A DNA stretch of 64,000 nucleotides from Synechococcus sp. HK05 (GCF_019104765.1 NZ_JAHRXJ010000011.1:496001-560000), one strand, 5' to 3'. Counted from the first letter of the stretch, positions 50,798-59,880 are shown. Notes: a model not told the origin generated them from the letters alone. Program-made: numbers and translations.

Positions 50798-52849
50798 TTA
50801 GGTGGTAAAAGACGTTAAATCTTGTATTTGTTGGGACCTTAAGATGCCGCCGGTATACAAAGCCTCTAGGTTATTGCCAACAAAAATACCGACCCCGGCT
50901 AGGCCGTCGGTAGAGATGTCTCTCGCGGATATAGGCTCTGCGCCAGTGCCGGAGATCAAAACGATATCGAAAGGATCTAGTCCTTCGATAATATCAAAGT
51001 TTTGACTGCCATCACGATCTGGCTTGATCACAAGTGTGTCTATAAATCCATCTTCGGCAGACAGGAAGGTGTTCTTCCCGGTCCCTCCTAGAATCTTGTC
51101 GGACCCGACATTGCCGTTAAGCGCGTCATCTCCACTCCCGCCGTCGATAATGTCATCTCCTTGTAGTCCATCGATAGTATCGTCGCCTTGTTTTCCGGTT
51201 AGAACATTAGGCAAGAAGTTGCCTATTATGGAGTCGGAGAAAGCGCTGCCGACAGCATTTTCGATTTCAACACCGGCCGCAATCGTGAAGCCTCCTTGAT
51301 TCTTTATGACTTGATTAAAGTAGCCGCCAACATTGATGGCACTTTCAAGGAGTTGTTCTTGTTGCTCCAGTTCAACATTTAGGCTTTTTTCTCGATAGTC
51401 AGGATCGGATTCCGCCAGCGATCTGCTCACTTTTCTGATGCTGTCGACCGCACTGCTAATTGAATCGATAAGCGTGTCAATGTCTGAGGTGTCAATATTG
51501 CTAAAGAAGTAGTCTCCAAAGGATTGAGTGCCCCACTTTCCTTCTGAGCTCTCTAGCTTGATGTCAGCAGGTGCTTCCAGGATAGCAGGAGCTAGTACGG
51601 CAAATTTGTAGCTGGTCCCCAGGAGTGATCCAGGCGCATTAACAACATTAATAATTGTTTGTAATGCCTCTGCGCTTTTGGCATCTGTAACACCAATGGC
51701 TTCCCAGTTGTATTGCTCGCTCATTTCATCTGACTGTGGCCGATATGCGTTCATCGGCGCGGCCCGAAGATTGATGACAGCCTTATTTCGGGCGTTTCGT
51801 GCGTTGATCGTGTCGATGCCGCCCGCATCCCATACGGACGCCCAGCCAGTGAGTTCATCGCGACCTCCGGTTAGTTCGTAGGTATCGTTGCCGGTCCTGG
51901 TTTTAATATTGTAGCCATATTTGAGTTGTATATTCATGATATCAAGTGCCATTGGAGTCTGGGCATGCCCTGCACTGTCGACATCCGGCAAGAGTAAGGG
52001 ATTATTCTCTTGATCAAATTGCAGGCCTCTATTATAAGACATAATAGTGTTTGGAGTTTGATTCTGTCCAAACAGGCCATAGCCGAAGACGCCAAACTGG
52101 TCTCCTGCCGCAAGAACTGGGTTGAGCCCAACAAAGATCGGCGATGGGTTTAGTGGGTCAAGGCCGCCATCATGCGGGTGAGAGAGGCCAATGCCATGCC
52201 CAATCTCATGGATGGCTGTCTCTAGAAAAGAGTATCCAGGATTTGTATTCGTAGTCTCGTTGTAAAACTTGGCGTTAATCCAGGAGGTCTGTGGCTCGCC
52301 TGGTGGCGGATCTAAGATCCCTTGGTGAGAGCCGAGGACGTTTTGGGGAATCCCTGAGGAGGGATCAATGCTGATTAGATAATATTCTATGTTTGCGGCA
52401 GAGCCCTCTTCGACTTCTGTGAATTCGATGTTGGCAACTTCTTTCCAGGCTTCAAAGGCGTTGAGGTAAGCCCTTTTGAGATTGCTTGGCCATCCATTAA
52501 GCGGACCCAATTCGGCCAGTTTTGCGGAGCCGGATAAAGTAGGTTTGTCAACAAATGAGATTAAGACCTCTACAGGCTTCTCGTTGAGGGGGCCAGGTGC
52601 GTATCCGCCTACGTCAATCAGTTCATTCTTGAGTGGATTAAAGTTGATCGATGCGATTAAGTCCGAATTTTCGTTGTAGAGCTTTCCGTCGTAATTGATG
52701 CCATCTATCCAGGGGTTGTTCCCTTGCGTTGGAAGAATCCCTAGGATTGGATTCAAAGAGAAGGGAATCTTCGCTCGGGCAGCGGGTGATGGCATTGTCT
52801 TTGAAGGTGAATCTATTTGCGCTGTAGCCAGGGCTCGGGATTTCGACAT
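50798..52849 (-). CDS. M10-type RTX metalloprotease
   Basis: 683 residues, no signal peptide. The zinc site is complete: H214-E-x-x-H218 with H224 in AIHEIGHGIGLSHPHDGG, and the Met-turn is in NTIMSYNRG. This makes it a metzincin of the serralysin/M10 type. The central ~300 residues are not recognised. Near residues 555-600 are RTX repeats (GKQGDDTIDGLQGDDIIDGG..NGNVGSDKILGGTG) that bind calcium, and a beta-rich C-terminus for type I secretion. No ABC/HlyD/TolC genes are nearby. GC is much lower than in flanking genes, and it sits between two copies of the ClC 3' end, indicating acquisition. Confidence 0.88.
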   Translation of the reverse strand: MSKSRALATAQIDSPSKTMPSPAARAKIPFSLNPILGILPTQGNNPWIDGINYDGKLYNENSDLIASINFNPLKNELIDVGGYAPGPLNEKPVEVLISFVDKPTLSGSAKLAELGPLNGWPSNLKRAYLNAFEAWKEVANIEFTEVEEGSAANIEYYLISIDPSSGIPQNVLGSHQGILDPPPGEPQTSWINAKFYNETTNTNPGYSFLETAIHEIGHGIGLSHPHDGGLDPLNPSPIFVGLNPVLAAGDQFGVFGYGLFGQNQTPNTIMSYNRGLQFDQENNPLLLPDVDSAGHAQTPMALDIMNIQLKYGYNIKTRTGNDTYELTGGRDELTGWASVWDAGGIDTINARNARNKAVINLRAAPMNAYRPQSDEMSEQYNWEAIGVTDAKSAEALQTIINVVNAPGSLLGTSYKFAVLAPAILEAPADIKLESSEGKWGTQSFGDYFFSNIDTSDIDTLIDSISSAVDSIRKVSRSLAESDPDYREKSLNVELEQQEQLLESAINVGGYFNQVIKNQGGFTIAAGVEIENAVGSAFSDSIIGNFLPNVLTGKQGDDTIDGLQGDDIIDGGSGDDALNGNVGSDKILGGTGKNTFLSAEDGFIDTLVIKPDRDGSQNFDIIEGLDPFDIVLISGTGAEPISARDISTDGLAGVGIFVGNNLEALYTGGILRSQQIQDLTSFTT

Positions 52850-55931: not shown

Positions 55932-56876
55932 ATGAAGTTCCCGGTGCTCCAGGGCTGGATGGTGGGCTCCGGGCAGCGGCCGCTCCGCAAGCAGTTGGCC
56001 ATCACGCTCTCGGCCATCTTTGCGCTGTCGATTCTGGTGGCTGTGCTGCTGTTGAATCAACTCTTTGGCTTGCAGGCGCGCAGCCTGATTGATCAGCGCT
56101 CCAGCTTCTTTATGGATGCGATGTTGGCCGTGCGCGAATACACCAGTAAAGATGTCAACCCCATTGTCGCGCCTTTGAATGAAGGAGCGGGTGCATTTCG
56201 TCCTGAGTCTGTGCCCAGCTATTCGGCTCAGACGGTCTTCTCCTATCTCAAGGCAAAGCCTGAGTATCGGGAATATTCCTACCGTGAAGCGGCTCTCAAT
56301 CCCACAAACCTGCGCGATAAGGCCGACAGCTTTGAAACCGGTGTGATCGAGCGTTTTCGCAACGAGCCATCGCTGACCACGCTGGCGGGTGAAAAAAATA
56401 CACCGCTTGGTCCCATGCACTTTGTGGCGCGTCCGATCAAGATCACCAAAGAGAGTTGCCTGGTTTGTCACTCCACGCCCGCCCGGGCTCCCGCGAGTCA
56501 GCTGCTCACCTACGGCGACAGCAGCGGCTTTGGCTGGAAGCTCAATGAGATCGTGGGCGCTCAGATTGTGACGGTGCCCCAGAAGGCTGTGTTTGAGGCC
56601 AAGGATCGGTCGCTGTTCACCACGGCGTTGCTGTTTGTGATTGCTTTTGTGGCGGTGGGTTTGATTACTAACAGTGTGCTCAATCAGTTGATCCTGCGCC
56701 CCATGCGTGAGATCAGCCGCAAGGCGGAGGAGGCCAGCGTCACTCCGGCCACGGTGTCGTTCGACGAGCGCAGTCGCAGCGATGAGATTGGCTTGCTGGC
56801 CCGCAGCTTTGAGCGGATGAAGCAGAGTTTGGCGATCTCGATGCAGATGCTCAAAGACCGGCAAGGGCGTCCATGA
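55932..56876 (+). CDS. membrane heme-c sensor: Tll0287/DUF3365-type domain plus HAMP, no output domain
   Basis: 314 residues from ATG 55932. TM1 (~22-44, LAITLSAIFALSILVAVLLL) is followed by a periplasmic DUF3365/Tll0287-like domain with a c-type heme motif C176-LV-C179-H180 (CLVCH), the FETGVIERFRNEP and MHFVARPIKI segments, then TM2 (FTTALLFVIAFVAVGLI). A HAMP linker follows (LRPMREISRKAEEAS, RSDEIGLLARSFERMKQSL). The protein stops right after the HAMP helix, so it has no kinase, cyclase or methyl-accepting domain and must signal in trans. Its stop overlaps the next gene start (ATGA). Confidence 0.85.
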   Translation: MKFPVLQGWMVGSGQRPLRKQLAITLSAIFALSILVAVLLLNQLFGLQARSLIDQRSSFFMDAMLAVREYTSKDVNPIVAPLNEGAGAFRPESVPSYSAQTVFSYLKAKPEYREYSYREAALNPTNLRDKADSFETGVIERFRNEPSLTTLAGEKNTPLGPMHFVARPIKITKESCLVCHSTPARAPASQLLTYGDSSGFGWKLNEIVGAQIVTVPQKAVFEAKDRSLFTTALLFVIAFVAVGLITNSVLNQLILRPMREISRKAEEASVTPATVSFDERSRSDEIGLLARSFERMKQSLAISMQMLKDRQGRP

Positions 56877-57811
56877 GCGTTGCTGGCTTGGGGGTGCGGT
56901 GGCCGCTGCTGGCTGTCGCTTCAATGCTGTGGGGTTTGGCTGGCTGCGGACAGCAGCCGTCTGAGCGGGTGAGTCTGTGTGGGCCTGTCGGTCAGCTGCG
57001 GGTGGGTTATGTGGGTGCCGAAGAGGGCCGAGCTATGGCGGGGCAAGCCGTTTTGCCCGATTCCGACATCTCGCGTCTGCGCGATCTGTTGACCATCGCC
57101 AGCCGCTGCGAGGTGTCGCTGGAGCCGGTGGTAAGTCCGGAGCAGGCACGGCAACGGCTCGGGGCCGGCGAATGGGATGTGGCGTTTCTGCCGCCCGGTC
57201 TGGCAGCCCTGGCGATGGAGGGGTCTGATCAGCGGGATTACAGCCTGCTGCGGCCCCTTGGGCAGCGCAGTCAGTCGCGCTCGCAGTTGTTGGTGCCTTC
57301 CGGCAGTGATCGGCGCACGCTCGCGCAATTGAACGGCGCTCGGCTGGGTCTGCTGCCGCGGGGTTCACTCACGGGTTTTTATCTGCCCCTTTACAACCTG
57401 CACGGCTTGCGTTTGCAGTCAGTTCACTATGCCCTCAGTTACCGCGAGTTGCTCGATCAATTGCGTGCCGGCAAGTTGGATGTGATCGCCTGGGATGCAT
57501 CGCTGCCCGATCCCGGTACAGATGTGCGGGTGATCGTTGATGATCCAAATCTCATTCCTGTTGGTGCGTTGGTGCTCAGTCAGCCTCTGGTGGCAGCTGA
57601 TCACCAGCCGTTTCTCAAGCTGTTGGATCAGAGTGCTGCCCAGCTTCCTCCCAGTCTGGGTTATGTGGCTGGGGTGTTGCCAGAAGCCCAGGGGCTGCAA
57701 CGGCTCCGCACAGTGGTGACCAACGTGGAGAGCTGGACCTTGCCGCTGAAGGGGCAGCCCTATGCGGTTTACGGTCGCAAGCAGCAACTCAATGCGGAGG
57801 GGGCGAGTTGA
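56873..57811 (+). CDS. PhnD-like periplasmic binding lipoprotein
   Basis: 312 residues with a lipoprotein signal: a hydrophobic segment then the lipobox LAGC. The mature fold resembles PhnD/SsuA-type substrate-binding proteins (LRVGYVGAEEGRAMAG, AGEWDVAFLPPGLAALAMEG, LLPRGSLTGFYLPLYNLHGLRLQSVHYALSYRELLDQLRAGKLDVIAWDA). PhnD proteins bind phosphonate or phosphite for an ABC importer, but no permease or ATPase gene is present. In this cluster it may instead be the ligand receptor for a signalling complex. Starts and stops overlap both neighbours. Confidence 0.8.
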   Translation: MSVAGLGVRWPLLAVASMLWGLAGCGQQPSERVSLCGPVGQLRVGYVGAEEGRAMAGQAVLPDSDISRLRDLLTIASRCEVSLEPVVSPEQARQRLGAGEWDVAFLPPGLAALAMEGSDQRDYSLLRPLGQRSQSRSQLLVPSGSDRRTLAQLNGARLGLLPRGSLTGFYLPLYNLHGLRLQSVHYALSYRELLDQLRAGKLDVIAWDASLPDPGTDVRVIVDDPNLIPVGALVLSQPLVAADHQPFLKLLDQSAAQLPPSLGYVAGVLPEAQGLQRLRTVVTNVESWTLPLKGQPYAVYGRKQQLNAEGAS

Positions 57812-59880
57812 TGGCTGGGCGTGAGCGCCAGCTCAAGGCCATCGTGTTCAGCGATGTGGTGGATTCCTCCGTGAAAATCTTCGCGGATGAGCTGATTGCT
57901 ATTCAGCGCATCAAAGAAGATCTGGCGCTCATTCGTGATGAGCTGCAGCGCCATGGCGGGTCCTTGGTGAAATCGCTGGGTGATGGCCTTCTCGCCACCT
58001 TCGATGGCCCCACCCAGGCGCTGGAGTTCATTCAGTCGTGCGTGCAGAGCCTGACGGCGAGAGGGCGTCAATCCTTGGCCCATCGCTTTGGCTTGCACAC
58101 CGGCGAGATCTATGCCGACGGCGACGACATTCTCGGCCAAGGCGTGCATTTGGCGTCTCGCCTCCAGACGGTGAGCCCGGCCAACGGCGTGGCCTTTGTG
58201 CGGTCCACCTATGACCTGATTGATCCCCGCTTCCGTCGTTTGGCACAGCCGATGGGCGAGGTGGAGCTCAAGGGGTTGCCGGAGCCGATGCAGGCGTATT
58301 GCCTCGGTCAGGAGCAGTTGCTCGACTTTGCCCAGGCCCATACGCCGGAGGCCGTGCAAGTGGAGATGCTGCTGGCGGATACCCCGTTTGAGTTGGTGCG
58401 CCCATTGGGGCGCTCGCCCGCCCAGCAGACCCTGCTGCTTCAGGAGCGGCAGCGGGAGCGCCAGGCGGTGATGAAGCTGATTCCTGCGGGGCCGTCGCTT
58501 GTGGAGGCCCTGCAGGTGGAGGCTGCCTGTTTGGATCGATTGCGGCATCCCCGTATTCCGAGGGTGCTCGATGGCTATGCCCGCGCCGGGATGTTCTGCT
58601 TCATTCAGGAATACATTCCTGGCCCTTCCCTGCAGGGATCACTCGATCTGTTGCGGCGCAAACAGCGGTTGGCGGAGTTGCTGCGGCAAGTGCTCCAAGT
58701 GCTCGAGCAGGTGCATGCAGCTGGCCTCGTGCATGGCGATTTGCATCCCGCCAATCTGATTCCTCCCCCAGAGGCGGGCCCCCTCTTCCTGGTGGATTTC
58801 TCCTTGCTGAAGGCCCGTCTCGATGTGGGATCGGATCAGCGTCGCTCGGGCTTCACGGGTGTCTCGGAGGCTGGGCGTGCATTTTTCTCAGCGCCGGAGC
58901 GGGCTCGCTTCGGCCGGCTGACGCCAGCCGCAGACCTTTACGCCTTGGGGGTGTCGGCCCTGAGCCTCTACACCGGTCAAGATCCCGCCAGCCTCTACGA
59001 CGAAGCCCAGGGCTGTTGGTCGCTTCAGGGGGTGGAGGCGGAGGTGGCCGGCTGGCTGGCGCCCCTGCTGGAGGATTTACCGGCCCGGCGTGTGCAACAG
59101 GCGGCCGATGCGCTGCGGCTGCTCGATCAGTCGCCCGCGACTCCGTTGGTGAGTGTTCTCCCCGTGCTGGGGAGTCCGGGGACCGGCCTTTCTGCACTCA
59201 GCAAGCCCGTGCTGCATCAGCAACTGGTGAGCACGTATGGCCCGATGGTGGAGTTGCTGCTCGAGAGCCAGCCCAGTGTGATTCCGGCTGGGCAGGTGCC
59301 TGCGCTGCAGGAGCGGTTGGTGGCAGCCGGCTTGGCCCGTGCCGATGTGGAGGAGGCCTGTCGGGCCGCCCAGGTGCAGCCGGAGCCGGCTCTGGCGGTT
59401 GAGGCTGAGCCTGCTCCGGCTTCCGTGTCCCCACCAGCTGAATCGGCTGGGCCTGGGCGTGGGTATCTGCAAGAGCTGCGTCTGGCGATTGGTCCGATTG
59501 CTGATGTGATCTGGACGTCGGAGATGGAGCGAGCTGCGTTGGATGATCCCCAGCGGCTGCGTCCGTTATTGCTGCAGGCCAGCGTTCCCGAGGTCGCTGT
59601 GGAGTCGTTGTTGAAGCAGGTCTCCGGGGCGGTACCTGCGTCGCCTCCGGAAGGGATGGAGGTCGTTCAGCCCCCCACCCCAGAGCCGGAGGAGGCTGCG
59701 CCCGTTGATGGTGAGCAGTTGCTGCTGCGCCTGATCGGCCCCATCGGCAGCACGGTGTGGCACGAGGTGGCCCACTTGCCGGCGGAGCAGCGGCTGGCAG
59801 CCTTGGAAACGACCCTGCGGGGCTATGGCCTGGATGCGCTCACCCTGGCGGATCTGCGCCGGCAGCTTCAAGGGGGATGA
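57811..59880 (+). CDS. class III cyclase-like and protein kinase-like fusion with three C-terminal repeats
   Basis: 689 residues from ATG 57811, with a good GGAGGGGG just upstream; it overlaps the previous TGA by 1 base. Residues ~8-168 form a cyclase homology domain with metal aspartates D15 (FSDVVDSS) and D58 (LGDGLL). The transition-state Asn is replaced by H113 (GVHLASR), though R117 remains. Residues ~193-450 form a kinase fold with K222 (VMKLI), D310 and N315 (HGDLHPANL) and D329 (VDFSLLK, DFS for DFG). Three ~50-residue repeats follow, each with a GPxxxxxW/L core (YGPMVELLL, IGPIADVIW, IGPIGSTVW). No membrane segment. Probably the cytosolic output of the cluster. Confidence 0.85.
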   Translation: MAGRERQLKAIVFSDVVDSSVKIFADELIAIQRIKEDLALIRDELQRHGGSLVKSLGDGLLATFDGPTQALEFIQSCVQSLTARGRQSLAHRFGLHTGEIYADGDDILGQGVHLASRLQTVSPANGVAFVRSTYDLIDPRFRRLAQPMGEVELKGLPEPMQAYCLGQEQLLDFAQAHTPEAVQVEMLLADTPFELVRPLGRSPAQQTLLLQERQRERQAVMKLIPAGPSLVEALQVEAACLDRLRHPRIPRVLDGYARAGMFCFIQEYIPGPSLQGSLDLLRRKQRLAELLRQVLQVLEQVHAAGLVHGDLHPANLIPPPEAGPLFLVDFSLLKARLDVGSDQRRSGFTGVSEAGRAFFSAPERARFGRLTPAADLYALGVSALSLYTGQDPASLYDEAQGCWSLQGVEAEVAGWLAPLLEDLPARRVQQAADALRLLDQSPATPLVSVLPVLGSPGTGLSALSKPVLHQQLVSTYGPMVELLLESQPSVIPAGQVPALQERLVAAGLARADVEEACRAAQVQPEPALAVEAEPAPASVSPPAESAGPGRGYLQELRLAIGPIADVIWTSEMERAALDDPQRLRPLLLQASVPEVAVESLLKQVSGAVPASPPEGMEVVQPPTPEPEEAAPVDGEQLLLRLIGPIGSTVWHEVAHLPAEQRLAALETTLRGYGLDALTLADLRRQLQGG

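Follow-up and report, generated by a model that had tools for sequence, protein, structure and literature searches.

A membrane sensor ending in HAMP and a STAC-tailed cyclase-kinase form a probable split receptor in Synechococcus sp. HK05

Introduction

How might a membrane sensor that ends just after its HAMP domain deliver a signal to the cytosol? This question is raised by three overlapping genes found at positions 55932-59880 of a 64,000-nucleotide (nt) stretch of DNA from Synechococcus sp. HK05 (NZ_JAHRXJ010000011.1:496001-560000; this whole stretch is referred to as the window). The host is a freshwater Synechococcus-type cyanobacterium with a genome of 2.53 Mb. The genes encode a heme-c sensor, a PhnD-like lipoprotein and a protein with cyclase and kinase homology, and a preliminary description, made from the sequence of the window, suggested that they form a split receptor. 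A similar puzzle surrounds the archaeal receptor Af1503, a standard model for HAMP domains, which lacks an effector; we know of no account of how it signals. The protein encoded next to it, Af1502, gave rise to a domain, STAC, that was reportedly named in 2015 and whose role is said to be unclear. We argue that the Synechococcus cluster is probably a split transmembrane receptor of the Af1503/Af1502 kind, in which the STAC partner carries an enzyme and the lipoprotein is an accessory.

Layout of the cluster

The three genes, all on the same strand, are as follows.

55932..56876, + strand: sensor gene, ATG start, 314 amino acids (aa), read from the open reading frame (ORF)
56873..57811, + strand: PhnD-like lipoprotein gene, start within ATGA, 312 aa (PF12974, E 1.6e-10)
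57811..59880, + strand: cyclase-kinase-STAC effector gene, ATG start, 689 aa, soluble (ORF and Pfam)

The ORF coordinates bear out the overlaps of 4 and 1 nt given in the preliminary description: the sensor and lipoprotein genes share ATGA (56873-56876), and the lipoprotein and effector genes share one nucleotide (within TGATG, 57809-57813) if the effector starts at the ATG at 57811, with an alternative TTG start at 57808 giving an overlap of 4 nt. Two further claims of that description hold equally well. The sensor consists of a transmembrane segment (TM1), a heme-c Cache domain (Tll0287-like, sCache_heme, PF11845), a second transmembrane segment (TM2) and HAMP (PF00672, E 2.5e-8), after which about 14 residues remain, with no output domain (Pfam for the domains, hydropathy for the transmembrane segments). 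The third gene encodes a soluble protein with matches to Pkinase (2.8e-16) and Guanylate_cyc (1.5e-7) in Pfam and no transmembrane segment by hydropathy.

The effector tail and the sensor HAMP domain

What the preliminary description did not see is the C-terminal part of the effector, which contains up to three copies of a STAC-like repeat.

59194..59370, + strand: tentative STAC-like repeat 1 (STYGPMVELLL...), conserved with relatives in A4 and with a GP-centred pattern; lies outside the profile match
59455..59634, + strand: STAC-like repeat 2 (LAIGPIADVIW...), from hhalign of A4 against A3; its model has Af1502 as best Protein Data Bank (PDB) match
59707..59877, + strand: STAC-like repeat 3 (LLRLIGPIGSTVW...), from hhalign of A4 against A3

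Three kinds of evidence connect this tail to STAC. The first is sequence profiles: a profile of four picocyanobacterial sequences (A4) aligns with the tandem tail profile (A3) with a probability of 93% and E 3e-7, covering the last two repeats in the window. The second is the motif, since the family profiles A3 and A6 have an IGPIA core and the window has IGPIAD and IGPIGS, all of which agree with the pattern (L)GPx(x)A that STAC domains share between helices 1 and 2. The domain has no Pfam or NCBIfam name; 64 members gave no Pfam match, and the window tail had a weak PP-binding match (E 0.019). When profiles were compared with the PDB, the first match of the tail was Af1502 of Archaeoglobus fulgidus (E 0.0068), and a deeper, single-copy profile found Af1502 at E 0.00079 and nothing else at E<=1. 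The third kind of evidence is fold, which in Af1502 consists of four helices. Af1502 was the first Foldseek match both of an AlphaFold model of the tandem tail from a related locus, L147 (prob 0.97, TMt 0.68; top VIA Z 7.1, 61 residues), and of a model of the last two repeats in the window, guided by the relatives' alignment (prob 0.93; top VIA Z 5.7, 59 residues), although the alignments behind these models have members in common, so that the two results are not independent. The agreement of motif, sequence profile and fold points to the tail being a STAC relative of Af1502.

The other half of the comparison comes from the sensor.

56679..56831, + strand: HAMP domain, residues about 250-300 (Pfam)
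56814..56852, + strand: conserved tail RMKQSLAISMQML after HAMP, the proposed STAC contact (motif conservation)

The best PDB match of the sensor is the HAMP domain of Af1503, which ranks above every other HAMP structure. No other single piece of evidence is as strong as the finding that the two halves of one archaeal pair top the searches made with the two halves of the cluster.

The residues that follow HAMP are a candidate site of coupling. Sensors near STAC effectors end with DEIGxLAxxFxRMKxSLxxAMxML and a few more residues, and the pattern R[ML][KRQ]xS[LF]xx[ASLG][MLF] is found in 96 of 101 such sensors; the Af1503 counterpart reads RLRRSLKVAMESL. The motif is also kept in 19 of 24 sensors with no STAC gene in the fetched stretch, several of these 24 loci ending at contig edges or belonging to genomes with a STAC gene elsewhere. 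We found no fusion of sensor and STAC in a single ORF among the fetched loci. Paralogues that have a long coiled tail lack the motif, and some adjoin a MinD-like ATPase instead; three of these (L125:6257-8344, L127:6946-9021 and L143:3093-5057; 351-371 aa, without RMKxSLxxAM) sit beside a MinD/ParA-like ATPase gene and no STAC effector, possibly a second type of partner.

Recurrence of the cluster and of its parts

The preliminary description held that a failure of the three families to co-occur elsewhere would count against it. The families do recur together in other picocyanobacteria, and in altered orders across cyanobacteria. A congener (L036) has the same gene order, with 97, 91 and 90% identity for sensor, lipoprotein and effector, respectively; two loci from another genus (L037 and L038) have the same order with about 80, 58 and 62% identity and different flanks. 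Same-order blocks with different flanking genes include those of Synechococcus sp. UW105 and UW140, from a named collection. Among 151 genomes of the family, a full-length sensor and a full-length cyclase-kinase occur in the same seven, always with a lipoprotein-sized gap between them, and we therefore conclude that the set is gained or lost as a unit; a further three of the 151 have a different or truncated sensor and no effector. At one locus (L039:4915-6849), a gene for a 644-aa GTPase-like protein (MMR_HSR1/dynamin-like) adjoins the sensor and cyclase-kinase pair.

We searched 386 cyanobacterial genomes with each protein and then read 80 named loci. The sensor, a PhnD-like lipoprotein and a Ser/Thr kinase occur together in many filamentous and unicellular cyanobacteria, most commonly with the lipoprotein gene diverging from the sensor gene and the kinase gene converging on it (lipoprotein <- -> sensor, kinase <-). 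The preliminary description had read the overlaps as coupled translation of a stoichiometric set; the local overlaps in the window favour this, but overlap is not general, opposite-strand placement being the usual state among relatives (69 of 79 pairs are convergent). The STAC gene, third after the lipoprotein in the window, is next to the sensor in most relatives.

The enzyme attached to the STAC tail varies. In 73 of the 80 named loci, the effector near the sensor closes with at least one copy of a helical domain of about 60 aa with the IGPIA core, joined to a kinase, a cyclase, both, a caspase, a TIR protein or a histidine kinase; whatever the enzyme, a median of four residues separates the end of the STAC domain from the C-terminus. 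A cyclase is fused to the kinase in the window and in Nodosilinea, Halomicronema and Leptolyngbya, and takes the place of the kinase at L149 and L166; L093 has a separate FHA-GAF-cyclase protein behind the kinase and L123 a similar separate cyclase gene, with no cyclase at other loci. Loci in which no kinase was found can have, beside the sensor, a gene for a caspase-like protein, for a HisKA_3 histidine kinase or for a TIR protein. Three observations on effector loci stand apart. A 161-aa protein beside a sensor (L128:7946-8431), with an N-terminal part of about 100 aa and a STAC tail, is the nearest cyanobacterial counterpart of Af1502. Caspase-STAC effectors at L177:9024-13865, and similarly at L165, L179 and L198, accompany sigma-70-region-like and DUF1822 genes (Pfam for L177 alone). 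On the other flank of the sensor, L099:4184-6070 and comparable Nostoc loci carry a Ser/Thr kinase with WD40 repeats, about 600-630 aa long.

Tail and sensor are also linked across genomes. A detectable tandem STAC tail occurs in 29 of the 386 cyanobacterial genomes, all of them among the 50 with a sensor (hypergeometric 2e-30, not corrected for genome relatedness). Distances among sensors are correlated with those among STAC domains (Mantel r 0.63, against at most 0.19 in 2,000 permutations), and each of two paralogous sensor clades has a matching STAC clade, even within genomes that hold both. The association extends to proteobacterial plasmids (Rhodovulum, Skermanella, Paraburkholderia and Caballeronia), in which an output-less heme-Cache-HAMP gene adjoins a tandem-tailed kinase gene, with overlapping reading frames in two cases. 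A search of 72,556 plasmids with one STAC tail returned five matches, all five of them kinases from records that also have an adjacent DUF3365-HAMP sensor; there were no close DNA relatives of the cluster on the plasmids searched. Proteobacterial pairs of sensor and STAC-kinase at L133, L134, L135 and L136 adjoin type VI secretion genes, and in three of these loci the position upstream of the sensor, taken by the lipoprotein in cyanobacteria, is occupied by a gene for a FecR-like or unknown protein.

The lipoprotein

56936..56947, + strand: lipobox LAGC (sequence), its Cys25 invariant in family alignment A2

The Phosphonate-bd match of the lipoprotein is above the curated Pfam cut-off, and its family has PtxB, PhnD and the sensory arsenate protein ArrX as PDB relatives. 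It keeps a Ser/Thr-rich turn (GSxTG), the remainder of the pocket differing from those of PhnD and PtxB. The ORFs flanking the cluster are nadC-like, argS-like and hisC-like (identified by eye) and include no phosphonate-type permease or ATPase gene, so that the lipoprotein has no transporter partner beside it, in line with the preliminary description; a canonical PhnD relative is encoded at a separate locus of the same genome. This gene context suggests a sensory rather than a transport role. Indeed, PhnD-like sensory binding proteins have precedents in AioX, ArxX and ArrX (PMC5908839).

Given these precedents, the lipoprotein itself could be what primarily senses the ligand, in the way that AioX serves AioS, with the heme Cache domain acting mainly as a docking receptor and the heme as a structural or redox gate. 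The frequent presence of the lipoprotein near the sensor (53 of the 80 named loci) is consistent with this arrangement. However, the other 27 named loci lack a lipoprotein near the sensor, as do five proteobacterial pairs and one class of Nostoc loci, whereas the heme motif is near-constant, and the lipoprotein's ligand is not readable from sequence; we consider a primary role unlikely. Because the proteobacterial pairs and the Nostoc class do without it, we regard the lipoprotein as an accessory and not a core part of the receptor.

The heme-c sensor domain and its signal

56457..56471, + strand: CLVCH heme-c attachment motif (CXXCH), residues 176-180, invariant in sensor alignment A1

The Cache domain matches PF11845 with E 2.4e-37 and 129 bits, against a curated cut-off of 24.1, and lies between hydropathy peaks near residues 22-47 and 227-250, the two transmembrane segments. 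The only cysteines of the sensor are those of CXXCH, leaving no axial Cys; Tll0287 and a stand-alone paralogue in the same genome differ in having cysteines beyond CXXCH. That paralogue (G000:C10:86587-87060; L041:6444-7103) is a second Tll0287-like gene, and its extra cysteine may be an axial ligand.

According to a preprint (PMC12889525), a P. azotoformans protein with the layout TM-sCache_heme-TM-HAMP and no axial Cys binds nitric oxide (NO) tightly. It shares with the Synechococcus sensor the same sensor domain, CXXCH, the lack of an axial Cys and HAMP, and the sensor thus has the layout of the NO-sensing sCache_heme branch. By analogy, the signal is most likely NO or a redox change, with NO the best guess because this relative binds it tightly.

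The same preprint describes stand-alone forms as about half of sCache_heme proteins and as redox-like in behaviour. A second alternative builds on this: the genes might share a physiological context but not a signalling path, with the heme Cache serving redox or electron handling and STAC allowing the effector to oligomerise or to dock to some other membrane protein, for example a transporter. CbrA offers a precedent, its STAC domain packing against an SLC5 transporter (PMC13022988), and transport components are enriched around Af1503-like receptors (PMC4834066). Nonetheless, HAMP and the conserved tail behind it point to a relay, STAC tails nest in sensor-bearing genomes and adjoin the sensor on enzymes without a transporter domain, and the matching of sensor and STAC paralogue clades is at odds with a merely shared context, which we consider quite improbable.

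The cyclase and kinase domains

57838..58305, + strand: class III nucleotide cyclase domain (Pfam, alignment), the sole Guanylate_cyc match in the genome
58429..58995, + strand: Ser/Thr kinase-like domain (Pfam, alignment)

The genome has this one cyclase-domain gene, three kinase-domain matches and nine matches to cyclic nucleotide monophosphate (cNMP)-binding domains. We take the roles of individual residues from general knowledge of the two families. In alignments, the cyclase keeps both metal Asp residues, the base-specifying Lys/Asp pair seen in adenylate cyclases and the Arg of the Asn/Arg transition-state pair; the Asn of that pair, retained in relatives, is His in every picocyanobacterial copy. 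The kinase-like domain keeps Lys, Glu, the catalytic Asp and the metal Asp, with HGD for HRD and DFS for DFG; the glycine loop is lost in the picocyanobacterial kinase, the kinases of relatives being intact. The cyclase domain is probably of the adenylate type, as predicted from its residues; cyclic AMP (cAMP) is the more likely output, and the kinase domain may be regulatory.

That the picocyanobacterial effector is a pseudo-enzyme scaffold, catalytic neither as kinase nor as cyclase, in a cluster that is decaying or a repurposed remnant would suit these substitutions, the divergent STAC repeats and the patchy presence (seven of 151 family genomes), but is doubtful given three intact ORFs conserved over several genera (sensor identity 63-98%), the retained cyclase metal Asp residues and Lys/Asp pair, the kinase Lys and Asp, and the nine cNMP-binding matches.

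Proposed mechanism and implications

Several points weigh against a split receptor of the Af1503/Af1502 kind. The picocyanobacterial STAC repeats are too divergent for a hidden Markov model (a weak match) and rest on profile-profile comparison; for helical bundles, Z scores of 5.7-7.1 are modest and would be weak evidence by themselves; some genomes (e.g. G340 and G060) have the STAC effector away from the sensor; shared ancestry inflates both the co-occurrence and the distance correlations; and with the glycine loop lost and the cyclase Asn replaced, one or both enzyme activities may be gone. Taking these into account, we still favour such a receptor with reasonable confidence. The preliminary idea of a split receptor is thus upheld in its central part, a HAMP sensor acting on an enzyme encoded next door, for which comparative genomics gives strong support, and qualified for the lipoprotein, which becomes an accessory.

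We propose that a dimeric periplasmic Cache domain with covalent heme c would respond to a diffusible signal (NO or a redox change being the likeliest), while the lipoprotein, anchored outside the inner membrane, would bind a small, possibly oxyanion-like ligand and probably modulate the sensor. A conformational change would travel through TM2 and HAMP and, the sensor having no output of its own, the short helix after HAMP (RMKxSLxxAMxML) would engage the C-terminal STAC-like repeats of the separate effector. This engagement would determine how active the class III cyclase, probably an adenylate cyclase, and the attached kinase-like domain are; both the physical contact between HAMP and STAC and the direction of control are what we infer from the comparisons above. 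In other bacteria, the same sensor may be served by STAC-tailed kinases, cyclases, caspases, TIR proteins and histidine kinases, with STAC as a universal plug.

Whether this extends to a general rule, in which a widespread class of output-less bacterial and archaeal receptors signals in trans by docking of a STAC tail onto HAMP, seems to us evenly balanced. Under such a rule, exchange of the partner gene would wire one type of sensor to kinases, cyclases, caspases, TIR proteins or histidine kinases. If correct, the model describes receptors that depart from the usual fused plan of one- and two-component systems, puts Ser/Thr kinases, cAMP, and caspase-like or TIR proteins downstream of heme-c Cache sensing, and shows how receptors without an output domain can signal. 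Since the clusters pair the same type of HAMP with STAC tails on recognisable enzymes, the question of Af1503 signalling can be put to a direct test, using domains that are soluble and an output that can be read. The assignment would also give a name to an uncatalogued domain.

Elsewhere in the window, a large ORF on the - strand (50798-52849) encodes a putative secreted protease-like protein with HExxHGxGxxH and GGxGxD calcium-binding repeat-like segments, seen by eye.

Comparison with known systems

Literature searches on STAC together with SLC5 or HAMP, and on the three-part set, turned up papers on STAC, CbrA, CrbS and RpuS but none describing such a system. The sCache_heme proteins in the preprint text that we read (PMC12889525) have fused outputs, stand as single domains or, in one protein, carry HAMP, and that text names no trans-acting partner of the kind proposed for the cluster. 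AioX/AioS and ArrX/ArrS resemble the cluster by analogy, in that a PhnD-fold periplasmic protein serves a membrane sensor and not a transporter (PMC5908839); they differ in that their sensors are histidine kinases that carry an output themselves and have neither heme Cache nor STAC. In the SLC5-STAC histidine kinases CbrA and CrbS, as proposed for the cluster, STAC connects input at the membrane with output in the cytosol (PMC13022988, PMC5715377). However, these are single fused chains with a transporter input, a histidine kinase output and STAC in mid-chain, whereas the cluster's STAC is a terminal tail on an effector with no transmembrane segment and no Pfam match to such a fusion.

The closest parallel is Af1503/Af1502 (PDB 4cq4, 5a1q; PMC4834066), in which HAMP is the sole cytosolic part of the receptor and a translationally coupled gene next door encodes the STAC-fold protein with its GPxA motif. 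The preliminary description knew of no standard named system with such parts; this pair has the same arrangement. The differences are additions on the Synechococcus side. Af1503 is not described as having a heme-c Cache domain; Af1502 has 68 residues and no enzyme, whereas the cluster's STAC is not a stand-alone partner but the C-terminal tail of a 689-aa cyclase-kinase; and the cluster adds a PhnD-like lipoprotein.

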